From IMG/VR virus record IMGVR_UViG_3300044950_001271, positions 1-21,322 of that record: a stretch of 21,322 bases of DNA. One strand, given 5' to 3'. Within the stretch, counting starts at the first letter, position 1, and the number at the start of each line of letters is the position of its first letter. Positions 3,763-20,466 of the stretch are shown here, piece by piece. The notes beneath the pieces are model-generated. The model ran no database searches, was not told the DNA's origin, and saw only the letters and a list, made by a program, of their open reading frames with translations. Made by a program: the position numbers and the translations under genes. This DNA comes from a virus.

Positions 3763-4542
3763 ATGGGAAGAAAGAAAAAAATATCATTTAAGTTAAATCC
3801 TGAGTGGATGTTCAAAGAGCCTATTGATTTTGAATATAACAAATATACTTTATTAGATTACTTACAAAAATGTGAAAAAGGATTTGATAAGTTGGAAATA
3901 TATCCTGACTTTGTTGAATTGTCGCTACATTTGGCGAACTTACAATCTATTGTTAAAGAAAATACATTATTACTGACTAATAAAAAATTTGAGTCGTGTG
4001 ATGATGAAATCCTTGTTAAAGAACTTATTTCAAAAAAACCAAGACAATTATCAAATGATGAAGAAAGTGAGTTAGATAAGACTCTTACATTTTCAGGTGG
4101 AAAATTATTTGATGCGTTTAATATTGCAAAATCAATATGGAATTTAGCCTATGATAGTACAGACATTTTTCTTAAAAAAAACAAAAAAGGATTAATCTCT
4201 GGTATGGGTTATATGTTTTATTTTGATAAAGAAAATGAAAAATTAATGGTTTGGGAATATGAAATAAAAAAACCAAAAGGGGATACTCATAATAATAAAA
4301 CTTATATTAATTTAATTTACGATAATACTTTGAATGGGATGACACTAACTAGTGTTATCAATACTTTCACAAAATGGAATCATACAGATTCTTATAAAGA
4401 CCTTCCAATATTTGAGATGAAATGTTCTCAAAAACTACCAATGGAACAAACCATGATTCCAATCATGAAAAGAAAACTAATGGCATACATTTTTCAAATT
4501 GTTAACCTTGAAAAGATGAATTCCTTTGACTCTGAAAAATAA
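3763..4542 (+). CDS. Hypothetical protein, 259 aa
   Basis: I do not recognise this protein. It starts with a basic tail (MGRKKKISFK), then appears globular with no membrane segment. Conserved-looking stretches include LHLANLQSIVKEN (about 56-68), FSGGKLFDAFNIAKSIWNLAYD (about 110-131) and a beta-rich section around MGYMFYFDKENEKLMVWEYE. It follows the preceding gene after 26 AT-rich bases with no recognisable terminator or promoter, so it is likely co-transcribed. The ATG sits after GAAAA, the usual A-rich context in this genome. Confidence 0.8.
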   Translation: MGRKKKISFKLNPEWMFKEPIDFEYNKYTLLDYLQKCEKGFDKLEIYPDFVELSLHLANLQSIVKENTLLLTNKKFESCDDEILVKELISKKPRQLSNDEESELDKTLTFSGGKLFDAFNIAKSIWNLAYDSTDIFLKKNKKGLISGMGYMFYFDKENEKLMVWEYEIKKPKGDTHNNKTYINLIYDNTLNGMTLTSVINTFTKWNHTDSYKDLPIFEMKCSQKLPMEQTMIPIMKRKLMAYIFQIVNLEKMNSFDSEK

Positions 4543-5443: not shown

Positions 5444-5871
5444 TTTATTGGTTAACAGGACAACCTGGTGCAGGTAAGACAACATTGGCAAAATCAATTA
5501 TGGAGTTAAGGTACTTCAATAATTGGTACCATATTGATGGTGATGATATTAGAGAATTATTTGATAATAAAGATTATTCAAAAGAAGGACGAATGAAGAA
5601 TATACAATTAGCTCAACATTTGGCTCAATATCTTCACTCCAAAGGACAAAATGTTTTAGTATCATTAGTGTCTCCTTACAAAGGACAAAGAGATGCATTC
5701 AAAGAGAAACTTGAAAATGCAATAAAAGAAGTTTATGTTTATACTTCAGAGGTAAGAGGTAGGGAACAATTCTTTGTTCAAGACTATGAACCACCAACAG
5801 AAAATTACATTGACATGTGCACCGACAACATCACTGTTGCCGAATGTGTTGAAAAAATATTTAAAAAATAA
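5440..5871 (+). CDS. APS-kinase-like P-loop kinase, 143 aa
   Basis: This resembles adenylylsulfate kinase (CysC), which phosphorylates APS to PAPS. It has a Walker A motif GQPGAGKT at residues 7-14, HIDGDDIREL (31-40), which matches the DGDxxR motif of APS kinases, a helix with RMKNIQLAQHLAQ, and LVSPYKGQRD (76-85), which matches the SPYxxxR signature. It is shorter than cellular CysC (around 200 residues): the C-terminal part is reduced. The substrate might be APS or another small nucleotide or alcohol; phage members of this family are not safely assigned. It is translationally coupled to DUF3310 upstream, and a nucleotidyltransferase starts one base after its stop codon. Confidence 0.8.
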   Translation: MIYWLTGQPGAGKTTLAKSIMELRYFNNWYHIDGDDIRELFDNKDYSKEGRMKNIQLAQHLAQYLHSKGQNVLVSLVSPYKGQRDAFKEKLENAIKEVYVYTSEVRGREQFFVQDYEPPTENYIDMCTDNITVAECVEKIFKK

Positions 5872-5872
5872 T

Positions 5873-6274
5873 ATGGAAAAGATACACATAGAAGGAGACC
5901 CAAAATTAAAAAATAACCCTGGTAAACAATTCTCAATGTTTATTGGAAGATGGCAACCATGGCACGATGGGCACAGATGGTTGATAGACCAAAGACTTGA
6001 ACAAGGTAAGAATGTTTTAATCTGTGTTAGAGACATAGAACCTAACGAACAGAACCCATTCACAGCACAAGAAGTTTATGAAAATATCCTTATCAAGTTA
6101 TATGATTTAATTATTGAGGGAAGAGTTAAGGTTATGGTAATCCCTGATGTTGAATCGGTAAATTTTGGAAGAGGAGTTGGTTACGATATAATAGAGCATT
6201 TACCACCTCAAGAAGTGAGTGATATCTCAGCCACCAAAATAAGAGAACAATTAAAACAAGAAGGTAAATTATAA
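5873..6274 (+). CDS. HxGH nucleotidyltransferase-like protein, 133 aa
   Basis: A member of the cytidylyltransferase/NMNAT-like superfamily, which transfers a nucleotide monophosphate from CTP or ATP to a phosphorylated substrate. The first strand and loop read FIGRWQPWHDGHRWLI (23-38) with HDGH at 31-34, the signature for nucleotide binding, and ISATKIREQL at 118-127 corresponds to the ISSTKIR motif near the end of the fold. The frame is open upstream to 5774, inside the kinase gene, but the ATG at 5873, one base after the kinase stop codon, is in the right place for this fold. Its stop overlaps the methyltransferase start (TAATG). Being next to a sulfate-activating-type kinase suggests a two-step nucleotide pathway; the acceptor is unknown. 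Confidence 0.82.
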   Translation: MEKIHIEGDPKLKNNPGKQFSMFIGRWQPWHDGHRWLIDQRLEQGKNVLICVRDIEPNEQNPFTAQEVYENILIKLYDLIIEGRVKVMVIPDVESVNFGRGVGYDIIEHLPPQEVSDISATKIREQLKQEGKL

Positions 6275-8619: not shown

Positions 8620-10032
8620 ATGAAAAGAATTATATCAGAATCAGGGTTGAGAAATATCAACGCCTTAAAGAAAAGATATCAAAAAGCTGAGATTTATTTT
8701 CACCAAGACCTTGATGGGGTAACAACAGCGATTGCGATGAAAAAATACCTTGAAGACAACGGTATTGATGTTGTTGGTGCCCATATTATACAATATGGTG
8801 ATAAGGAGTTCTCGGTTAAAAAGAATGACGCTCAAGGGGATACAATGCCTGTTCTAGTAGATTTTGCTCATGGTAAACCAATGTTTGTGATTCACACAGA
8901 CCATCACGATAAACAAGTTGGTGTTGAAAAGGGTACCTCCAAACAATTTAGAGGGGCTCGTTCAAATGTTGAGACTATTTCTCAAGTAGTTTCACCAACA
9001 GATTTATTCCCATCATCTGATATATTATTGATTAATACCGTGGATTCTGCGGATTATGCAAAACATGATATTACACCAAAAGAAGTGGTTAATTATATCT
9101 ACAGAATAGATAAAGACTCTTCATTACAAAAGAATAAAATGTTATTAGGTTTAGTAATAAACAAATTACTTTTAGCTTTTAAAAACAAACCAGGATTTTT
9201 AGAAGGATTGGTTATGGATTCTGAACCTTCTTTATTGTCTATACTAAATAACATTAGAGCTTGGATGACAAAAACAAATGCCGCCAAACCTGAAGACTTA
9301 CAAAAAAATGCACAAGATTATGCAGACAAAATGGCAGACTATCCAACAGTGTCTGATAACATTATTTTTCAATACGGTGGGGGTAGTATGTTTAAGCCTG
9401 GGTCTTACGACAGATATACACCATTCAGAAATAATCCTGAGGCGGATTTTCTTATCATGGCTTGGCCGATGGGTCTTGTTCAAGCATCTTGTAATCCGTT
9501 TAAAAAAGAAAGAGAACTTAAAGGGGTTAATCTTGGGGAGATAGCTCAAGAAGTTTTGGTTAGATGGGAATCTCAATTAAAGGATAGGAAAATTCCTTTG
9601 TCAACTATGAAATGGGTTAGTGAAACAAGTGCTGGACCTGAAAGTGTTGGTTTTACTTTTAAAGACTTTGACGCTCTTTACGGTGGAAAATTTGTATTCA
9701 TGGACGGTGGAGAAGAAGCCTTAGGAAAAATTGAAAGAATGATGGAAAAACCATTCAATGAATTATCTGAACAAGAACTTGAATTGATGGATAAAATTGG
9801 TATTAATGCTTGGGATTTAATTCAGTCTAATTCTGGTGGTCACAAATGTATTACCAATATCTCAGGACTTAATTATTTAGGTAGAGGTAAAAGACCACCA
9901 CAAGGTAAGTATAAGTATGATTCTGAGAAAGATGATTCACCATCAGTTAAGTTTACAAAAATGATTGCTACTGAATTTCAAAAAGTATTAAAGAAAAAAA
10001 TTGAGGAGTCTAAAAATTCTTCGGAGGATTAA
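8620..10032 (+). CDS. DHH-family phosphoesterase, 470 aa
   Basis: A DHH-superfamily protein (the RecJ/nanoRNase/cyclic-dinucleotide phosphodiesterase group). Metal-binding motifs appear in order: FHQDLDGVTTA at 27-37 (the DxDG motif), VDFAHG (80-85), HTDHHDK (92-98, the DHH itself) and NTVDSADYAKHD (139-150). Near the C-terminus, SGGHKCITN (405-413) fits the GGH of the substrate-binding DHHA1 region. The first residues MKRIISESGLRNI resemble the N-terminal tag of the two genes upstream. It is longer than nanoRNases and lacks a RecJ-type OB fold that I can see. The substrate, whether short RNA, DNA ends or a cyclic dinucleotide signal, cannot be told. The gene converges on the DUF192 gene and their stop codons overlap. 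Confidence 0.82.
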   Translation: MKRIISESGLRNINALKKRYQKAEIYFHQDLDGVTTAIAMKKYLEDNGIDVVGAHIIQYGDKEFSVKKNDAQGDTMPVLVDFAHGKPMFVIHTDHHDKQVGVEKGTSKQFRGARSNVETISQVVSPTDLFPSSDILLINTVDSADYAKHDITPKEVVNYIYRIDKDSSLQKNKMLLGLVINKLLLAFKNKPGFLEGLVMDSEPSLLSILNNIRAWMTKTNAAKPEDLQKNAQDYADKMADYPTVSDNIIFQYGGGSMFKPGSYDRYTPFRNNPEADFLIMAWPMGLVQASCNPFKKERELKGVNLGEIAQEVLVRWESQLKDRKIPLSTMKWVSETSAGPESVGFTFKDFDALYGGKFVFMDGGEEALGKIERMMEKPFNELSEQELELMDKIGINAWDLIQSNSGGHKCITNISGLNYLGRGKRPPQGKYKYDSEKDDSPSVKFTKMIATEFQKVLKKKIEESKNSSED

Positions 10033-10382
10033 GATAAGTCGTAAGTGATACTATCACCCGGTTGAATGTTGAGGATTTCACAAGAACCACCCTCAAGTTC
10101 TAATACAATATTACCGTTTCCACAATAGGAAGGACAATCAAATTCATTATTACATGGAGGACAATCGTGATGTATATTTACAATCACATTGTTCTTTATA
10201 ATGATTATGTCTAATGGAATTACACAACCCTTCATCCAAAAACATTGTTTCTTACCATCCATTAAGAATAACAATCCATTAAAAGTTCCATCAAATGCTT
10301 TACCCATCATCCCAATTGATTGGGATTCTCTATCAATTAATGTTTTTACATTAAAACTGTTATCGTTAATTCTTACCTTCAT
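10029..10382 (-). CDS. DUF192 family protein, 117 aa
   Basis: Matches DUF192, a small beta-barrel family of unknown function, through QSIGMMGK (21-28), GLLFLMD (36-42), CFWMKGCVIPLDIIII (47-62, the family's FWMKNxxxPLD) and GGSCEILNIQPGD (98-110). The frame reaches 10439, but I chose the ATG at 10382 because a TATTTAT box lies 5 bases upstream and the domain starts at once with MKVRIND. Between the core strands it has CPPCNNEFDCPSYC (74-87), four cysteines in a pattern that could hold a metal. Most family members are secreted, but this start lacks a signal peptide. It stands alone, convergent with the DHH gene. Confidence 0.85.
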   Translation of the reverse strand: MKVRINDNSFNVKTLIDRESQSIGMMGKAFDGTFNGLLFLMDGKKQCFWMKGCVIPLDIIIIKNNVIVNIHHDCPPCNNEFDCPSYCGNGNIVLELEGGSCEILNIQPGDSITYDLS

Positions 10383-10387
10383 ATCAA

Positions 10388-10394
10388 ATAAATA
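10388..10394 (-). promoter_or_regulatory. TATTTAT box upstream of DUF192
   Basis: On the minus strand the heptamer ends 5 bases before the ATG at 10382, nearly the same spacing as at 1056, 14875 and 19045. Confidence 0.45.
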
Positions 10395-10465
10395 CTTTAG
10401 AAAACATAATAGTATTTGAATTTTTATTTGACATTTCAATAATATTATTGTATTTTTAAAAAAAA

Positions 10466-10497
10466 GGACATATTTATATGTTCATGTCCGAAAGGAC
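10466..10497. other. Overlapping hairpins with alternative pairing
   Basis: GGACAT (10466-10471) can pair with ATGTCC (10484-10489), and GTCC (10486-10489) can instead pair with GGAC (10494-10497) around a GAAA loop. Only one can form at a time. Read on the minus strand the larger hairpin is followed by seven T, so it may be a terminator for leftward transcripts ahead of the DUF192 gene. Confidence 0.4.
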
Positions 10498-10533
10498 AAA
10501 CACCCCAGAAAATGTTTCGCGGTTAAAAAAAGA

Positions 10534-10565
10534 TTTGACAGTTCAAAAAAACTTTCCTATCTTTG
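10534..10565 (+). promoter_or_regulatory. Host-type promoter P1
   Basis: TTTG (10534-10537), a 20-base spacer and TATCTTTG (10558-10565) match the Bacteroidota housekeeping promoter. The predicted start is near 10571, at the foot of the hairpin RNA. The region is almost identical to P3 over about 40 bases. Confidence 0.85.
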
Positions 10566-10570
10566 TGAAA

Positions 10571-10624
10571 CAAATCCCGCAAGTGTGAGTTTGAGAAAAC
10601 CCTTGTAGCTTGTGGGATTTTTTA
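10571..10624 (+). ncRNA. Short hairpin RNA or tRNA-operon attenuator
   Basis: Right at the predicted P1 start, AAATCCCGCAAG (10572-10583) pairs over 12 bp (with one G-U) with CTTGTGGGATTT (10609-10620), followed by a run of T to 10623. The 25-base loop holds a smaller GTTT-GAGA-AAAC hairpin. The whole transcript would be one terminator of about 54 bases, so it is either a small RNA or an attenuator that limits reading into the two tRNA-like genes just downstream. No short peptide reading frame was evident. Confidence 0.6.
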
Positions 10625-10653
10625 TCTGAAGTTCTTTAAAATAATGATATATC

Positions 10654-10724
10654 GCGAGGGGGAGGTAAGGTATCTCACTGGTCTCATAAGCCAGTCCAAG
10701 TCGGTTCGTTTCCGGCCCTACGCA
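10654..10724 (+). tRNA. tRNA-like element, anticodon CAT (atypical)
   Basis: A 71-base cloverleaf can be drawn: acceptor GCGAGGG/CCTACGC with one A-A mismatch, D stem GAGG/TCTC with a seven-base loop containing GG, anticodon stem CTGGT/GCCAG around loop CTCATAA (CAT at 10685-10687), T stem GTCGG/CCGGC and discriminator A followed by ACTA. Odd points are a single linker base before the D stem, G instead of T at position 8, and T-loop TTCGTTT lacking the usual A58. It might be a real elongator tRNA-Met or tRNA-Ile2, a decaying copy, or a tRNA mimic. Confidence 0.55.
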
Positions 10725-10739
10725 ACTAACAACAAACAT

Positions 10740-10812
10740 CGTGGGATAGAGCAGTTGGCAGCTCGTGTGGCTCATAACCATAAGGTCGGAGGTTCGAGTC
10801 CTTCTCCCGCTA
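10740..10812 (+). tRNA. tRNA-Met (CAT), initiator-like
   Basis: A 73-base cloverleaf: acceptor CGTGGGA/TCCCGCT, TA linker, D arm GAGC-AGTTGGCA-GCTC, anticodon stem TGTGG/CCATA around loop CTCATAA (CAT at 10773-10775), variable AGGTC, T arm GGAGG-TTCGAGT-CCTTC and discriminator A at 10812. The first acceptor pair is C1-T72, unpaired, which is the hallmark of bacterial initiator tRNA. The D arm AGCAGTTGG..AGCTCG also follows initiators. The anticodon stem has two of the three consecutive G-C pairs of initiators. CCA is not encoded; ACTA follows, as I recall for Bacteroidota initiator genes. It is probably transcribed from P1. Confidence 0.9.
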
Positions 10813-10839
10813 CTAATTAAAAAAAAGTTTTAAAAAGTG

Positions 10840-10871
10840 TTTGATTAATTGAAAAGTTATTCATATCTTTG
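10840..10871 (+). promoter_or_regulatory. Host-type promoter P2
   Basis: TTTG (10840-10843), 20 bases, TATCTTTG (10864-10871). It lies 28 bases after the initiator-like tRNA and drives a short structured region without an open reading frame. Confidence 0.8.
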
Positions 10872-10877
10872 TAAAAC

Positions 10878-10946
10878 AATTGGAGATAACCCCAAGACCA
10901 TGAAAGAGGGTGTGTTATAAAATATGGTTTTTGACTTTGGTCATTA
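10878..10946 (+). ncRNA. Small RNA with possible H-type pseudoknot
   Basis: After P2, ATAACCCC (10886-10893) can pair with GGG (10908-10910) and GTTAT (10914-10918) with a three-base bulge. The loop of this stem contains ACCAT (10897-10901), which can pair with ATGGT (10924-10928), giving an H-type pseudoknot. A hairpin TGAC-TTTG-GTCA (10932-10943) follows. There is no T-rich terminator and no downstream gene before P3. It may be an independent small RNA; the structure is hand-drawn and unproven. Confidence 0.4.
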
Positions 10947-10977
10947 AAAAAATAAACACAAAATTTCTAAAAAAAGA

Positions 10978-11009
10978 TTTGACAGTTCAAAAAAACTTTC
11001 TTATCTTTG
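10978..11009 (+). promoter_or_regulatory. Host-type promoter P3
   Basis: TTTG (10978-10981), 20 bases, TATCTTTG (11002-11009). From about 10970 to 11012 it repeats the P1 region (10526-10568) with only two or three differences, so one promoter was probably copied from the other. Confidence 0.83.
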
Positions 11010-11011
11010 TA

Positions 11012-11100
11012 AACCAAACGGGTAACACTATTTGGTCTTTAACAATCACCGAAATCAAATCTCACTATCGGTAGTAACAGAGTAAGATTGTTAGAAAAAA
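11012..11100 (+). ncRNA. Small structured RNA downstream of P3
   Basis: Two structured parts follow P3: a hairpin ACCAAA (11013-11018) / TTTGGT (11031-11036), and a longer arm in which AACAATC (11041-11047) pairs with GATTGTT (11086-11092) and ACCGA (11048-11052) with TCGGT (11068-11072). The first of these pairs are perfect 7 bp and 5 bp helices stacked on each other on the 5' side. No reading frame is evident, and P4 begins 21 bases later. No good terminator is seen, so the transcript may run on into the large RNA. Confidence 0.45.
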
Positions 11101-11112
11101 GTTTTATAAAAA

Positions 11113-11144
11113 TTTGACAGTGTCAAAACTTTCATCTACCTTTG
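11113..11144 (+). promoter_or_regulatory. Host-type promoter P4 of the large RNA
   Basis: TTTG (11113-11116), 20 bases, TACCTTTG (11137-11144). It predicts a transcript start near 11150, just before the first long stem of the large RNA. Confidence 0.85.
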
Positions 11145-11150
11145 TAAAAC

Positions 11151-12138
11151 AATTGAAATGAAGGAAGGGTTAAAATCCCACTTCGGTAAGGTTGACCTTT
11201 CCTTCATTAATATGAATTACGTTCTTTGAAAATATTATTATCCATTTAGATGTTGATATCAAGACCTTCGGGTTGACATTGAGACTAATTTAATAAACGA
11301 TAATCGGCTGTATATGGTCGTCAAATAAACCTCGAAAGGGGGATAAAGTGAACCTGTTGTGTTAACAGGATTGCGGTTTCAGAAATGGAACTCGAGTATA
11401 CAAGTGACATATCATCCGACCTTGAGTATTGAGGGCGACGCTTTAGGGAAAGTGGTTGGATGGTTTGGGAATGTGGGTTCCTGAACTGAGTTTGGAAAAA
11501 CAATAAGAATAAGTCACAGGGGTCAAGCAAAAAATATTGTTCCAACAATATTATTGCGGACTCCAATATGAGAGGGGACTTAAAACCGAAAGGTAAGTTA
11601 GAGAACGAGTGGTGTCGCTACTAACCTTACAAAACATCTACCAAGGTGTTCGTTTGAAGTAATCTTAAAATATGGAGATAGGGATATCTCACCGAGTAGA
11701 AAGGTATTTTGTTGTTCAAAAGATAACGAAGCTTAAGACGGACCTCTACTTGGACACATCCACAACACAAACCAAACTTTTCAATAGGTGAAAAACTAAC
11801 AGAAAAACGGAAAAGTGTTCGTCAGGTGATAACGAAAGTTGCCTACACAGTCACGGGCGGTCCGTGGCACGAAAGAATCCCAAGTTCAATCGTATTTTTA
11901 CCAAAAACCTCTAAGGAGTCGAATCCTGAGTTAGCTCGCAAGGTTGAAGAGAGTAGAGTAGTAAGAGAGTGGTTATTACCTTAAGGAGTGATTAGTCTAA
12001 CTAATCGGCAATGAGGATTACTATCCAAAAGATAGTGGAAACGAAGGGAAACAATAATCCTTCTAAAGATTCTCAATAAGACGAGTATTCTCATCGTATT
12101 AGCCAAGAAGGTGTTACAGTGATGTAACACCTTTTTTT
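11151..12138 (+). ncRNA. Candidate giant structured RNA, about 985 nt
   Basis: This stretch has a promoter at its 5' end, a strong terminator at its 3' end, no plausible reading frame and dense local pairing. Stems seen include 11157-11168/11196-11208 (12 bp, one bulge), 11353-11358/11364-11369, 11413-11421/11454-11462 (9 bp), 11519-11524/11559-11564 enclosing 11533-11540/11545-11552, 11593-11601/11621-11630, 11675-11680/11685-11690, 11776-11782/11810-11816, 11852-11856/11862-11866, 11958-11964/11973-11979, 11990-11995/12001-12006 and 12014-12019/12056-12061 enclosing 12020-12025/12031-12036. A three-way junction fits 11906-11945. GNRA-type loops recur (GAAA at 11334, 11588 and 11834; GGGA at 11681; GTGA at 12119). 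G+C reaches 55% at 11821-11880, above the flanks. Size, phage context and nearby tRNA recall GOLLD and ROOL RNAs; it could be a divergent member or a new class. No group I, group II, RNase P or tmRNA core was found. Confidence 0.8.
12108..12138 (+). terminator. Terminator of the large RNA
   Basis: AAGGTGTTACA, loop GTGA and TGTAACACCTT form a perfect 11 bp stem, followed by T to 12138. It is among the strongest terminators in the window. Confidence 0.9.
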
Positions 12139-12171
12139 GTTTAATTATTTTTTTACTAAAGAAATAATGTT

Positions 12172-12179
12172 TATCTTTG
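12172..12179 (+). promoter_or_regulatory. Host-type -7 box (P5) for the 12198 gene
   Basis: TATCTTTG lies 18 bases before the ATG at 12198. At the 20-base spacing used by P1-P4 the -33 position holds TTTT (12148-12151) rather than TTTG, so this is a weaker match. Confidence 0.65.
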
Positions 12180-12197
12180 TAATCTAAACAAAGGGAT

Positions 12198-12479
12198 ATG
12201 AACATGAACTCACATAACATTAAGATTCAACACGAAACATTCGGTGTACTTTTGAGCGAAACATTTGTAAACGCGACTCAATTCAAACTGTTTTTGAAAA
12301 TGGTTCAAGGTTGTATTGAACTTAAGAATGATTTAACATTCTTTAACGGAACTGATTTTTTAGTTCATGTTCCTCACAAACACTTGGTTAATTCAATTAT
12401 CACAACTAATGTTGATAATTACACACTGGCAGAACATCTTATTAATAAATCTAAAATGGAGGCGTTAGAAACAAAATGA
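12198..12479 (+). CDS. Hypothetical protein, 93 aa
   Basis: Not recognised. It looks like a small alpha/beta protein: an amphipathic start (MNMNSHNIKIQHETFGVLLS), a helix rich in Phe and Lys (TQFKLFLKMVQGCIEL) and a C-terminal helix. A host-type -7 box precedes it closely. Two ATGs are in frame at its start (12198 and 12204) and the choice cannot be settled. Its TGA overlaps the ATG of the next gene by four bases. It is the first gene after the large RNA terminator, so it is a separate unit. Confidence 0.75.
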   Translation: MNMNSHNIKIQHETFGVLLSETFVNATQFKLFLKMVQGCIELKNDLTFFNGTDFLVHVPHKHLVNSIITTNVDNYTLAEHLINKSKMEALETK

Positions 12480-12769
12480 GTAGAGACACATTATTAGGAG
12501 GAATCCTTAAAATCGCAGGAGCGGGAGCTCTTCTATACGGAGCATATAAACTTGGTGAGAGTCATGCTAACAAACAAATCAAAAAAAATATTCCTGAACC
12601 AATCATTCCTTTGGATGTGATTAAGGAGGAAGTTAAAGAAAAAACAGAGGAAGAAACTGTTATTGAGCTTATTAAGGAGTTACGAAATAAACCAAACAAA
12701 AGTAAAAACGACAGATTTAATATTGATTTATTAGAGGTTAAGTTAAAACAAATTAGAAATCAAAAATGA
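12476..12769 (+). CDS. Small protein with N-terminal hydrophobic segment, 97 aa
   Basis: Unknown function. Residues 6-24 (LLGGILKIAGAGALLYGAY) are hydrophobic and Gly/Ala-rich and could be a single membrane anchor; the rest is charged and helical with Lys/Glu repeats (about 50-95) suggestive of a coiled coil. Such a layout fits a small inner-membrane-attached phage protein. It overlaps both neighbours by four bases (ATGA), so the three genes 12198-13062 are translationally coupled. Confidence 0.75.
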   Translation: MSRDTLLGGILKIAGAGALLYGAYKLGESHANKQIKKNIPEPIIPLDVIKEEVKEKTEEETVIELIKELRNKPNKSKNDRFNIDLLEVKLKQIRNQK

Positions 12770-13062
12770 TAACAATTCAAAATATAATTGATTGGTCAAA
12801 ACAACATCCTGTAAGAGAGAAAGGGCGAATTACGGTTATTAGTAACGATGTTATTAAGTTTTCTATTGTAGGTGGTTGTCAAGGATTATATGGGGATTTT
12901 ATTAATACATTTGAATTAGCAATTATTAATTTGGAAACGGGTGAATTTATGACTAATTTCTTTTGTCCTGATGATGGAGAGGTTGCTGGTTACATGTCGG
13001 GTAAAAGATTAGAAGAATTAGTGAATCAAATTTTTAGAGATAATGATTTCCAAGTTAGATAA
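12766..13062 (+). CDS. Hypothetical protein, 98 aa
   Basis: Not recognised. The sequence alternates short strands with glycine turns (VIKFSIVGGCQGLYGDFINTFELAII in two parts), which suggests a compact beta-rich domain, and ends with a helix RLEELVNQIFRDNDF. No membrane segment or cysteine cluster. It closes the small operon and is followed by the terminator at 13104-13128. Confidence 0.75.
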   Translation: MITIQNIIDWSKQHPVREKGRITVISNDVIKFSIVGGCQGLYGDFINTFELAIINLETGEFMTNFFCPDDGEVAGYMSGKRLEELVNQIFRDNDFQVR

Positions 13063-13103
13063 AACTTGGTGGTGGAATCTGTACTAAAACGGTACGGCCC
13101 TAA

Positions 13104-13128
13104 AGAGAGACTTCGGTCTCTCTTTTTT
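13104..13128 (+). terminator. Intrinsic terminator between convergent genes
   Basis: AGAGAGAC, loop TTCG and GTCTCTCT form an 8 bp stem with a UUCG-type loop, followed by six T. On the minus strand only three T follow the stem, so it serves mainly the rightward unit. The T run overlaps the stop codon of the leftward gene at 13127. Confidence 0.85.
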
Positions 13129-13624
13129 ATTGTTCATCCCACCAAATGCCAAACCCACAATTTCTATACATAAAATCATTACATTGAGTTTTTATGTATT
13201 CAACAAGTTCTTCATATTCTCCCCAATCTCCCATGTCAGTCTCTTCAGATATTTGGTCCATGGTTTTGTAAATTTCATTACCATCCTCGTCTGAGGTTAA
13301 TAATTTAGTTTCTCCCCAACTCCATCTTGAAAGTACTGTTGTGTCGTCATTCTCTAAAGAAACATGAGGGTTTTCAAGTTTAATGTATGCATATTCACCA
13401 TAGTCTCCATCATTAACGGTAACTCTAATTCCTTTACCACCATTATAAACTTTACTTATAGCCCTTTCAATAAAGTCATTGGCACCATCTTCACCAACCT
13501 CATTAACTAAGTCAGGTAATAAATCATATAAGTCGTAATCTACCATTCTGAAAATAGAATCTAAGTCAGGATTTGGGTAACCAACTTTATTTAAGACTTT
13601 TAAAAATGTTTTTATATTACTCAT
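13127..13624 (-). CDS. Hypothetical acidic protein, 165 aa
   Basis: Not recognised. An acidic, aromatic-rich protein: an N-terminal helical part (IKTFLKVLNKVGYPNPDLDSIFRMV), a basic-poor middle with GIRVTVNDGDYGEYAYIKLE, which looks like beta strands, and a C-terminal helix leading to CGFGIWWDEQ. It is the last gene of a three-gene leftward unit, with its ATG two bases after the stop of the zinc-repeat gene. Similar acidic composition to the gene at 59-1051, but no clear shared motif. Confidence 0.78.
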   Translation of the reverse strand: MSNIKTFLKVLNKVGYPNPDLDSIFRMVDYDLYDLLPDLVNEVGEDGANDFIERAISKVYNGGKGIRVTVNDGDYGEYAYIKLENPHVSLENDDTTVLSRWSWGETKLLTSDEDGNEIYKTMDQISEETDMGDWGEYEELVEYIKTQCNDFMYRNCGFGIWWDEQ

Positions 13625-13626
13625 AA

Positions 13627-14478
13627 TTATCCTTCGTATCGTATCATATCACTATCATCCATCCAAATTTTATAATCTGATGAATAACTTTTATGTAATT
13701 CTGGTTCATCACTATAGTTGGAACAATAAACTTCGTTAGTTTGTATTCCGTCAATAAATCTTTGATAAGATTCTTGATATCCTAATACAATAAAATCGTC
13801 TCTTAATCTATCAAAATCATATTCAGATAAAGCTGGTTCAAGGGTCTCAGCTCTTAATTCACATCGGTCCTTAATAAATGTGTCCCAAGTACAAATAACA
13901 TAATAGTCATATAATAATTTATCGGTTTCAATCTCACCTGTTGAATCACAACTATAACAAAGTTCTTTTCCGTCATTACAATTGTCACAATCTAACTCAG
14001 CATCTCCGTGACATGAACCACATGTTCTAACACCTGAACCATTACATTCAGAACATTGTTCTTCTGGGTTATTGCTATCTACCCCACTACCAAGACATTC
14101 ATCACATTCTACTTCTCCTGTACCATAACATTCATCACATTCTACTTCCCCTGACCCGTCACAACTACTACAATCCACTTCACCATTACCACCACAATCT
14201 GAACAAGTTTCAAGGTAATTATCTCCTTGAGTTATAAATAAACTAGCAAACCCTATTTTGTTTAACATTAAATCGGCTAACTTAAAATTATTTGTTTTGT
14301 TGTAAGAGTATATGTAGAATATTAATTTAATAATATCTGATGGGTCAAAATTAAAAAAATAGTCTTTTTGTTGTTTGTATATGTCTTTAAATAAATCATA
14401 ATATACTTGAGGTGATGAAGCATCTTTGGGGAATAATTCCGCCATTTTTATTGATAGTCTTTGTAATTTTTCGCTCAT
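13627..14478 (-). CDS. DnaJ-type zinc-repeat protein without J domain, 283 aa
   Basis: Residues 92-177 hold eight CxxC units, mostly of the CxxCxGxG type: Cys pairs at 92/95, 103/106, 114/117, 125/128, 142/145, 153/156, 164/167 and 174/177. The spacing is close to 11 residues. DnaJ has four such units, which bind two zinc ions; here eight could bind four. There is no J domain (no HPD), and the N-terminal 90 residues are an unrecognised helical domain with an aromatic stretch (FFNFDPSDIIKLIFYIY). The C-terminal 100 residues are acidic. The role might be protein folding or binding, by analogy with the zinc-finger domain of DnaJ, or it may be unrelated. It is the middle gene of a three-gene unit with two-base gaps. 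Confidence 0.85.
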   Translation of the reverse strand: MSEKLQRLSIKMAELFPKDASSPQVYYDLFKDIYKQQKDYFFNFDPSDIIKLIFYIYSYNKTNNFKLADLMLNKIGFASLFITQGDNYLETCSDCGGNGEVDCSSCDGSGEVECDECYGTGEVECDECLGSGVDSNNPEEQCSECNGSGVRTCGSCHGDAELDCDNCNDGKELCYSCDSTGEIETDKLLYDYYVICTWDTFIKDRCELRAETLEPALSEYDFDRLRDDFIVLGYQESYQRFIDGIQTNEVYCSNYSDEPELHKSYSSDYKIWMDDSDMIRYEG

Positions 14479-14480
14479 AA

Positions 14481-14870
14481 TTAATCTTCTTTATTTGGTA
14501 CAATTAGGTAAGACATATCAAAAATATGTCTTTCATCTGCAGCGAAATCTAATGTCCAAATATCACCTTCACTTATGGAAGTATTTTCACCTCCTTGTAT
14601 TAATTTACCTTTGGAGTCTATCACATATTTGCTAATAATATTACGCATTTTTTCAGACATTCTTGTAATATCTTTAGTGAAATAATGTAAATCAGGGTCA
14701 ATAGCATTATTATAATCAAATTTAACAAAAACACGATACGATTCAATTGTTAATTTGTCGTTAGATAAATAATCCATTTCTAATGAGACATCCATAATCT
14801 CAAATTCTTTTCCTGATTCAGAGATTATAATATATTTAATTTTTTCTGTTAAAATTTCTTCATTAATCAT
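14481..14870 (-). CDS. Hypothetical protein, 129 aa
   Basis: Not recognised. It appears to be a small beta-rich protein: strands IKYIIISESG, KLTIESYRVFVKFDY and DIWTLDFAADERHIF separate turns rich in Asp and Asn. No signal or membrane segment. It heads a leftward unit with the zinc-repeat gene (two-base gap) and begins 4 bases after a TATTTAT box. Confidence 0.75.
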   Translation of the reverse strand: MINEEILTEKIKYIIISESGKEFEIMDVSLEMDYLSNDKLTIESYRVFVKFDYNNAIDPDLHYFTKDITRMSEKMRNIISKYVIDSKGKLIQGGENTSISEGDIWTLDFAADERHIFDMSYLIVPNKED

Positions 14871-19056: not shown

Positions 19057-20025
19057 ATGAAAGTATCCATAAAAAAAACAGATAAGTCTTTAGATGAAAA
19101 AAGTACTTCTACCATAAAGAAGTTTCTTAATTTTTTACAGAACAAATTATCATTAACTGATGATGTCAAATTTGTCTTTGTTGATAAGCGTAATAATGGC
19201 ATGACTACAGGTGTTAGATTACCTAATCATACCATTCATGTATTATCCAAAGGAAGACTATTAATTGACATCTTAAGGACTATCTCACATGAATGGGTAC
19301 ATGAGTACCAACATCAAAAGATGGGGTATAAAGATACCGATAAAATCCAAGATATCGGTGGTCCTGAAGAGAATATGTCTAATGTATTGTCAGGTATATT
19401 CATGAAACAATTTCAAAAGACATATCCTGATTTAAATAAAGTTGTTTACAATGAATCTATTTTATCAAAGTCCAATGGAACAAAAGGGTTTCTAAAATTA
19501 ATGAAAGAAAATCCTGATGTCATGAATGAATTAGGGTTTAAAAACTTTGATAGATTAGAGGACTATGTTATCACAGGTACTAATGAAGAGTTTTTAGAAC
19601 TTAAAAATGAATTAAACGAGATTCATAAGAAAAAAGATAAGTACATTGACGGTGAGATGGATGAGATTGAAAGAGCAGTACAAGACTTAAGTAGAGATGG
19701 TGATATTGAGACTACAGTTAAAGATGTTGTATCTGCATTTACTAAAGCCAAAAAAGTTGATTTAACAAAAGATATATGGTCTAAACTTGAGAACACCGAA
19801 TCTAATAAGTTTAAAAAAGGTGATATCAAAAAAGTTAATGCTCTTGCATTAAAATACAATAAAACATCACCATTAAAACTTAAAAAGGCACTTCTTAGTG
19901 GTGATTACGACTCTCCTATGATATTACAGTTTGGGGATAGGTATCATTTAGTGGCCGGTAACACAAGACTTTCAACAGCAGCGGCTTTAGGGATTACTCC
20001 AAAAGTTCTAATCGGTAAAATTTAA
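19057..20025 (+). CDS. Zincin metallopeptidase-like protein with ParB-like C-terminus, 322 aa
   Basis: Residues 75-90 contain TISHEWVHEYQHQKMG, with HEWVH (78-82) matching the HExxH zinc motif; Glu104 or Glu105 in GGPEEN may be the third ligand. The N-terminal 120 residues look like a small gluzincin-type domain. A helical region with much Lys/Glu follows (about 140-240). The last 80 residues (about 240-322) read like a ParB/Srx-type nucleoid-partition domain: SPLKLKKALLSGDYDSP, then FGDRYHLVAGNTRLSTAAAL, where GNTRL (301-305) takes the place of GHRRL. A protease-like domain joined to a ParB-like domain is unusual. No signal peptide. It might cleave a cytoplasmic target, or its C-terminal part may bind a nucleotide. 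Confidence 0.75.
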   Translation: MKVSIKKTDKSLDEKSTSTIKKFLNFLQNKLSLTDDVKFVFVDKRNNGMTTGVRLPNHTIHVLSKGRLLIDILRTISHEWVHEYQHQKMGYKDTDKIQDIGGPEENMSNVLSGIFMKQFQKTYPDLNKVVYNESILSKSNGTKGFLKLMKENPDVMNELGFKNFDRLEDYVITGTNEEFLELKNELNEIHKKKDKYIDGEMDEIERAVQDLSRDGDIETTVKDVVSAFTKAKKVDLTKDIWSKLENTESNKFKKGDIKKVNALALKYNKTSPLKLKKALLSGDYDSPMILQFGDRYHLVAGNTRLSTAAALGITPKVLIGKI

Positions 20026-20079
20026 TCCTGTTAACATTTTACAATGTGATTTATTCTATCTATTTTTATAAAAAAAAAG

Positions 20080-20466
20080 ATGGAAAAAATAAAAAAGTTT
20101 TTTGAGTTTAGTGGAACAATTTCTGGGTTAAATTATTTCCTTAGAATATTATTAGCATCAGTTATCGCTTACTTGGGCGGATTTACTTTGGGTTACGGTA
20201 TAGGTACAAATAACATGGGTTTATTAACTTTAGGTTTGGTGATTTTGGCTCCAACATTTTGGTTTAACTTCACAACCATCTATAAAAGATGTAACGCTTT
20301 GTTTGGAGAAAACGCAACTGTTTATACTATAAGTCTAATCACATTACAGGTATTAAATCAATTTGTTGAGAAAGAAACGGTTGGTAAAGTTGGTGGTTTA
20401 GTTTTATTAATAATTGGATGTATATTAATCTTCAAAAATTCAAAAATAGAATCTCACAATGGATAA
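20080..20466 (+). CDS. DUF805-like membrane protein, 128 aa
   Basis: Starts MEKIKKFFEFSGTISGLNYF and contains about four hydrophobic spans (residues 20-42, 45-65, 78-92 and 101-119), with YKRCNALF between spans in the place where DUF805 proteins carry RRLHD. It fits the DUF805 group of small integral membrane proteins of unknown function, though shorter than typical. Gene overlap with the following gene is 8 bases. Only an imperfect TATTTAT relative (TTTTTAT at 20063-20069) lies upstream. Confidence 0.7.
   Translation: MEKIKKFFEFSGTISGLNYFLRILLASVIAYLGGFTLGYGIGTNNMGLLTLGLVILAPTFWFNFTTIYKRCNALFGENATVYTISLITLQVLNQFVEKETVGKVGGLVLLIIGCILIFKNSKIESHNG

Follow-up and report, generated by a model that had tools for sequence, protein, structure and literature searches.

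A full-length GOLLD RNA gene with a conserved rRNA-type boxA in its leader in a probable Bacteroidota phage

Introduction

Few natural RNA cages are known, and GOLLD forms one of them. The closest known system is env-38 GOLLD, which is 833 nt long and forms a closed 14-mer nanocage in cryo-EM; its contacts include the L20-J13/15 kissing helix and the self-kissing loops L21a and L21b (PMC12286853). In that paper, an A-rich linker, unresolved in the published structure, is placed within the cage, the env-38 RNA is also found downstream of a Met-tRNA, and GOLLD expression is stated, from earlier work, to rise during lysis. ROOL, like GOLLD, is a giant cage-forming phage RNA (PMC12286853) and is often near tRNA genes (PMC7567579).

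A second group of related systems shares the boxA element. boxA binds NusB-NusE, gives Rho resistance and is thought to hold the 5′ part of rRNA at the exit channel for folding (PMC6614801). Expression of a synthetic CRISPR array is raised about tenfold by boxA (PMC7862264). The nut sites of phage lambda also place a boxA in a phage leader, where it recruits host Nus factors (PMC6614801).

The window analysed here is a whole virus contig of 21,322 bases (IMGVR_UViG_3300044950_001271), which carries a single GOLLD. Like the env-38 locus as described in PMC12286853, it has a full 3′ domain, a 5′ domain, an A-rich linker, the kissing helix, L21a and L21b, a phage location and a tRNA-Met upstream. 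As noted from the window side only, it adds a leader with optional hairpin(s), a boxA, a Bacteroidota-type promoter and a linker without a tRNA. As in rRNA operons and before CRISPR arrays (PMC7862264, citing Stringer et al.), boxA (GTTCTTTGAA or GTTCTTTAA) lies between a promoter and a long untranslated RNA. The boxA of the Legionella Lens CRISPR, GTTCTTTAAAA (PMC7862264), has the same letters as the window boxA at 10631. The boxA elements described here differ from both in that phages carry them, and the RNAs they precede are a giant structured RNA, tRNAs and tmRNAs. They differ from the lambda nut sites in that their letters match host rRNA leaders, a comparison on boxA only.

Identity and extent of the RNA

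An earlier note, made from the letters alone, had described 11151-12138 as a candidate giant structured RNA, by inference a divergent member of a GOLLD/ROOL-type class or a new class, and had proposed covariance-model searches (GOLLD, ROOL and all Rfam families) and a covariation test among homologues. When the window is searched against all Rfam families, the matches in the whole window are one GOLLD on the + strand and two tRNAs. The GOLLD match (11692-12097, + strand) scores 317.2 bits against RF02032 (E 1.8e-90, cut-off 150) and covers the full model, 1-416, without truncation. No ROOL match is found in the window at the gathering threshold. ROOL identity is rejected on this ground, and ROOL is also described as distinct in sequence and secondary structure in PMC12286853.

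The RF02032 model spans the 3′ part of the RNA only (416 nt). The stretch from 11305 up to it aligns across relatives as well, and the two domains are:

11692-12097, + strand: GOLLD 3′ domain (matches all of RF02032; of the 93 Rfam pairs mapped, 92 are standard in the window; covariation in 50 clusters)
11305-11691, + strand: GOLLD 5′ domain, which forms the cap in the published cage structure (not covered by the Rfam model; aligned in 50 clusters)

Relatives were collected by a 3′-domain pattern scan of viral contigs, which gives at least 120 loci, and by a similarity search of phage records, which gives 3 more. Among the matches listed, 54 of 123 records (17/43, 20/40 and 17/40) contain a GOLLD over the cut-off. 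At least 147 loci, including many contigs twice, were dereplicated to 51 clusters, of which 50 are aligned and 49 have a leader. Loci L067, L099, L124, L141 and L145 are left out of the leader counts because they have no 5′-core match (two pairs are the same record), as are L004 and L179, which have too little upstream sequence. The 3′-domain HMM left out L163 and L164, which are fragments, and L181 and L182.

The 55 GOLLD matches among the listed records score between 183 and 332 bits, and 25 of them exceed the 317 bits of the window. The GOLLD of the window is thus mid-range and not divergent, so that of the earlier proposal the GOLLD lead stands and the divergent or new class does not. A wholly new or divergent class would accommodate a Rfam model of only 416 nt set against a transcript of about 985 nt. 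This reading is already refuted by the 317-bit full-model match and by the 5′ domain, which is common to 49 other GOLLD clusters, and we give it practically no weight.

The conserved core is 793 nt in the window (11305-12097) and 790-813 nt in 17 measured relatives. Contrary to what had been supposed, the RNA is therefore not longer than a typical GOLLD; env-38 has 833 nt (PMC12286853). The excess comes from a promoter-proximal leader of about 150 nt, which is variable among relatives, plus the terminator. From promoter to terminator the unit measures about 985 nt, and it has the marks of the class: a GOLLD of more than 800 nt, located in a phage and near tRNA genes.

A coding frame is rejected. 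No stop-free run exceeds 98 codons, a length reached or passed in 54 of 300 shuffles, in agreement with the earlier statement that no credible reading frame is present. The 1-kb stretch is the gene for a full GOLLD, with both domains, a promoter, a leader boxA and an intrinsic terminator. Judged by sequence comparison, it is a member of a known RNA family with strong comparative support.

Secondary structure and cage contact sites

The alignments are sequence-based (MAFFT), and the 3′-domain structure is mapped from Rfam. Across 50 clusters, 92.4% of the cells in the 92 pairs of the 3′ domain are paired, versus 71.9% in shuffles, and none of 500 shuffles is as high. When the partners are slid by 1-3 columns, pairing falls to 41-48%. 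In the 50 dereplicated clusters, 74 of the 92 pairs have changed on both sides. Two hairpins of the central multiloop are 55% and 64% paired, and the other helices 86-100%; we think that the two low values come from a one-base alignment shift between two loop types.

In the 5′ domain (11305-11691), the RNAalifold consensus for 50 clusters has 104 pairs, 80 of which show two-sided compensation. Since this structure was derived from the very alignment in which the pairs are counted, the figure lends support but not independent support. In the published GOLLD, too, the 5′ domain is less conserved and has stems of its own; the comparison with these is made for the domain as a whole. The local stems described in the earlier note are thus real and conserved, and the covariation it had proposed to look for is found in both domains. 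The clade supplies a covarying sequence set for each of them.

The elements of the 3′ domain that correspond to the published cage are:

11754-11815, + strand: A-rich variable linker (Rfam alignment), candidate counterpart of the published linker inside the cage
11824-11833, + strand: J13/15 strand of the kissing helix, which is bridge B7 in the published cage; pairs 10/10 with 11972-11981
11972-11981, + strand: L20 strand of the kissing helix, pairs with 11824-11833
11913-11927, + strand: hairpin with loop L21a, identified by position, with palindromic CG at 11920-11921 (self-kissing bridge B8)
11933-11945, + strand: hairpin with loop L21b, identified by position, with invariant GC at 11938-11939 (bridge B9; columns G247 C248)

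The two segments of the kissing helix are paired in 97.5% and 99.7% of cells in the 50 clusters. From position in the 833-nt env-38 numbering, we infer which hairpins are L21a and L21b. These hairpins sit in the Rfam multiloop, which coincides with the possible three-way junction noted earlier at 11906-11945. With the L21a dinucleotide taken as the two letters before (A/G)A, it is self-complementary in all 50 clusters (GC in 36, CG in 13 including the window, AU in one). The switch between GC and CG is reported in PMC12286853, and the AU variant, which is not mentioned in the sections of that paper on GOLLD, would fit the same self-pairing logic. Because the examined contacts (B7, B8 and B9) are kept, the RNA likely has the same quaternary structure as env-38.

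A tRNA in the linker was considered and is rejected, since ARAGORN calls no tRNA inside any of the 51 GOLLDs.

Promoter, leader and terminator

The flanks of the core contain the following elements:

11114-11144, + strand: promoter P4, TTGACA-N17-TACCTTTG (read from sequence; relatives have TAnnTTTG promoters before boxA)
11157-11208, + strand: leader hairpin with complementary ends AATGAAGG and CCTTCATT (optional; absent in, for example, L254, L238 and L232)
11221-11230, + strand: boxA element GTTCTTTGAA, between promoter and GOLLD (strict form in 40 of 49 leaders)
12105-12136, + strand: intrinsic terminator of the GOLLD transcript, an 11-bp stem plus a T-run

P4 belongs to the TTG...TAnnTTTG class, which we take to be the Bacteroidota -33/-7 promoter type, and the GOLLD transcript is predicted to start near 11150. 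A general scan for sigma-70-type promoters over 9000-14500 finds 26 sites versus 23.0 in shuffles, which is no excess, so the case for the promoter stands on conservation and not on the match alone. Of the 49 dereplicated GOLLD leaders, 44 have a TAnnTTTG promoter within 260 nt 5′ of boxA, and in 43 of these 44 a TTG occupies the -33 region. The spacing from promoter to boxA in those 44 is 25-207 nt overall and 25-36 nt in 25 of them. At the other end, 36 of 50 clusters have a terminator-like site no more than 80 nt from where GOLLD ends, versus 20 of 612 random windows; 14 clusters have none by that rule. The host-type promoter and the 11 bp terminator that the earlier note placed at the two ends are both borne out by this conservation.

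A conserved boxA in the GOLLD leader

In an alignment of 20 relatives, the leader from promoter to core varies and is even deleted in places; only GTTCTTTGAA and near variants of it are kept. In the window the leader hairpin stands 5′ of this element. The strict form of boxA occurs within 155 nt of the core in 40 of 49 leaders, versus 2 of 9800 shuffled leaders and 46 of 30,262 other windows of the same contigs. The loose form occurs in 45 of 49 leaders, versus 119 of 9800 shuffles and 966 of 30,262 control windows, and the degenerate form, GTTCNTWRA, in 48 of 49, versus 138 and 697, respectively.

Of these 49 clusters, 33 are confirmed to be free of the relatives in whose alignment boxA was first noticed. 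Within this set the strict form is present in 24, the loose form in 29 and the degenerate form in 32. In the remaining 16 clusters, each of the three forms is present in 16 of 16. Three of the four clusters without a loose boxA (L158, L173 and L175) carry GTTCTTAGAA, and a similar change is seen in flavobacterial 16S leaders. In the megaphage LR756502 (L122), the 155 nt next to the core contain no boxA; the only copy, GTTCATAGA, is about 480 nt upstream, with a tRNA-like stretch, seen by eye, in between.

The distance from boxA to the structured GOLLD core ranges from about 20 to about 120 nt. The spacing to the promoter varies to 207 nt, so boxA is hardly a fixed DNA element of the promoter. 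On another reading, GTTCTTTGAA would belong to the fold of the GOLLD RNA in this clade, as a structural element or a tertiary contact. It is the best-conserved stretch of the leader and lies in the same transcript as GOLLD, as that reading would have it. However, its distance to the core varies, the same element precedes tRNAs and tmRNAs and stands in 16S leaders, and six GOLLDs of other hosts have no clear copy. A structural role is therefore very improbable, and the element is best read as a boxA.

A boxA leader of GOLLD was not found described in the open-licence PMC papers searched. The conserved rRNA-type boxA in the GOLLD leader is the new part of the finding. The earlier note had no mention of boxA; the excess length that it remarked on is the leader that contains it.

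boxA in rRNA, tRNA, tmRNA and other transcripts

16S leaders found with a Bacteroidota-type 16S pattern (116 among the matches listed) are taken as Bacteroidota. Titles are available for 80 of 119 16S loci, and nearly all are Bacteroidota, with one labelled Saccharibacteria. GTTCTTTGA occurs within 300 nt before 16S in 43 of the 116 leaders listed, versus 2 of 5800 shuffles. The degenerate boxA is present in 87 of them, versus 141 of 5800 shuffles, and is not found in the other 29.

The window itself has two further promoted units upstream of GOLLD:

10535-10565, + strand: promoter P1 of the tRNA unit, TTGACA...TATCTTTG (sequence)
10631-10639, + strand: boxA GTTCTTTAA before tRNA-Met (pattern match)
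10654-10724 and 10740-10813, + strand: two tRNA-Met (CAT) genes (ARAGORN, Rfam)
10979-11100, + strand: small separately promoted unit (promoter 10979-11009, boxA-like GGTCTTTAAC from 11034, short foldable stretch)

In 51 loci, boxA within 110 nt after a TTG-TAnnTTTG promoter is found in 37 of 52 rows before GOLLD and in 17 of 30 rows before a called tRNA or tmRNA, versus 15 of 224 rows elsewhere. Four of these 15 precede tmRNAs found with Rfam (L090, L100 and, twice, L103), three precede a small element of about 90 nt (L216, L258 and L249, the match in L249 being partial) and two (L201 and L261) precede sequence that is tRNA-like by eye and uncalled by Rfam. By the pattern used, 13 of 44 tRNA cluster heads have a boxA and 31 do not, so the link between boxA and tRNAs is partial.

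Phage tmRNA genes share loci with GOLLD in L090, L100, L103 and L386, the first three with a boxA in front. On the minus strand of L103, near a GOLLD gene, a phage tmRNA match runs at its end into a group I intron match (3940-4164, 4136-4517). Upstream of GOLLD in L122, about positions 5770-5890, the sequence resembles a tRNA whose variable part is unusually long, seen by eye and uncalled by Rfam.

Six loci of named phages contain a GOLLD over the cut-off: two from Acinetobacter (L124 and L382), three from Streptococcus (L383-L385) and one from Mycobacterium (L386). With simple patterns on one strand, no clear boxA is found in any of the six; L384 carries a weak look-alike, TTTGTTTGAGAA. GOLLD as such therefore has no need of boxA, and boxA as a feature of every GOLLD is unsupported. 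Since boxA occurs before GOLLD, tRNA and tmRNA genes but not clearly in the GOLLDs of other hosts, we read it as a probable feature of stable-RNA transcripts of Bacteroidota phages and not of GOLLD in general.

The small unit at 10979-11100 sits where relatives have the element of about 90 nt, and the model of that element does not match it. This element is a candidate new small RNA. At E<=0.1 its model finds 16 distinct rows, of which 14 are near full length, one is partial and one is weak and on the opposite strand. It is seen in L207, L190, L197, L210, L251, L230, L216, L258, L236 and others, 135-247 nt 5′ of the core where this is visible. By eye, it has an outer helix, two hairpins and a likely pseudoknot (GATGAT/ATCATC, GGGTAAT/ATTACCC, GTAAC/GTTAC). 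In several cases it has its own promoter and boxA.

Possible mechanism and function

The promoter type and boxA point to a phage that infects Bacteroidota. The same boxA is present in the bacterial rRNA leader, which suggests that the phage borrows the rRNA-making machinery of its host for GOLLD. An untranslated RNA of about 1 kb meets the same problem as rRNA. We infer that the NusB-S10 antitermination machinery may transcribe GOLLD.

In the proposed sequence of events, host RNA polymerase would start at P4. The nascent boxA would be bound by host NusB-NusE (NusE being ribosomal protein S10), giving a processive antitermination complex of the rRNA type. This complex would allow the polymerase to read through about 1 kb of highly structured RNA that is not translated and to escape termination by Rho; it may also keep the GOLLD 5′ end by the RNA exit channel, aiding folding as is proposed for rRNA. 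The product would fold into a cap domain plus a ring domain and form the published 14-subunit cage. As a working choice, we take the cage to be a compartment or scaffold that would be produced in large amounts late in infection.

The overall explanation, a GOLLD gene of a Bacteroidota-infecting phage with a proposed host Nus-driven boxA antitermination and a predicted 14-mer cage, is held with good confidence. Against it are the GOLLD of Lactobacillus brevis, which is dispensable for phage production as stated in PMC7567579, and the lack of a clear near boxA in the six named phages and L122. The 29 of 116 listed 16S leaders without even a degenerate boxA, the 31 of 44 tRNA heads without boxA and the 35 of 80 protein relatives without GOLLD (see below) also count against it.

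How a phage can produce an untranslated RNA of 1 kb intact and in sufficient amount is a question to which the conserved boxA gives a testable answer. If it is of the rRNA type, it is also a clue to function, with GOLLD made like rRNA via NusB and ribosomal protein S10. Bacteroidota phages might tag GOLLD, many tRNA units, tmRNA and a small pseudoknotted RNA with the host rRNA boxA, in effect a phage "rRNA regulon" that acts via hijacked antitermination. For GOLLD this could also aid co-transcriptional folding and cage assembly, with S10 linking the cage to ribosome biogenesis. We lean slightly against this extension.

With respect to cargo, translation components (tRNA, ribosomal subunits) seem the likeliest, a choice that is itself tentative and rather doubtful. 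A related alternative is that the cage mainly stores or protects phage tRNAs or binds ribosomes, and that boxA only lifts yield. The two tRNA-Met genes upstream in the window would suit this, as would a ribosome pull-down of GOLLD cited in PMC12286853. Among 49 loci with at least 400 bases upstream, 23 have a tRNA or tmRNA within 700 nt upstream of the core, but none is called in that range in the other 26, some of which have less than 700 nt available, and no tRNA is found inside any of the 51 GOLLDs. This alternative is unlikely, and antitermination of a cage-forming RNA remains the preferred reading.

Relatives, synteny and exchange

The window protein encoded at 8620-10032 is a good marker for the phage clade. 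Its relatives occur in 535 viral contig stretches, and the best 80 of these are used here. Of four phage records that match it, only the uncultured megaphages LR745206 (46% identity) and LR756502 (39%) cover it well, and the clade is distantly related to megaphages of 634-642 kb. The protein has 470 aa and a weak DHH-type match of 20.4 bits, below the cut-off of 28.1.

In 45 of the 80 best relatives, GOLLD lies 1208-3484 bases downstream of this ORF on the same strand, and 39 of these GOLLDs are near complete. The other 35 have no GOLLD, and their contigs end 110-2865 bases after the ORF. Thus none of them spans the whole distance range without a GOLLD; several reach the shorter distances. A fixed place for GOLLD in the clade is likely, not proved.

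Among the clusters compared, the closest GOLLD core is that of L175, on a 308-kb contig, with identities of 83% (core), 91% (3′ domain) and 74% (5′ domain). Only short DNA matches, of 35-67 bases, lie beyond the GOLLD unit in the stretches L041 and L175. Among syntenic relatives, the identity of the ORF does not go with that of GOLLD: the two are 86% and 70%, respectively, in L201 and 77% and 80% in L261 (aligned columns). These discordant identities and the short flank matches make it probable that phages exchange GOLLD, and perhaps its domains.

The same observations, the close L175 core within dissimilar flanks and the ORF and GOLLD values of L201 and L261, would be expected if GOLLD were a recombination-spread cassette of little benefit to its carrier. 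Its presence at the same place in 45 of the 80 best relatives, with no contig spanning the full distance range without it, argues against this, as does the strong structural constraint on both domains; exchange is also compatible with function. We regard such a cassette as improbable.

One 59-kb contig, G019 (L131 and L142), has two GOLLD genes about 16.5 kb apart, at 36280-36673 and 19736-20149. On the minus strand of the window, 13627-14478 encodes a CxxC-repeat-rich protein with a weak match to the DnaJ central domain, below the cut-off.
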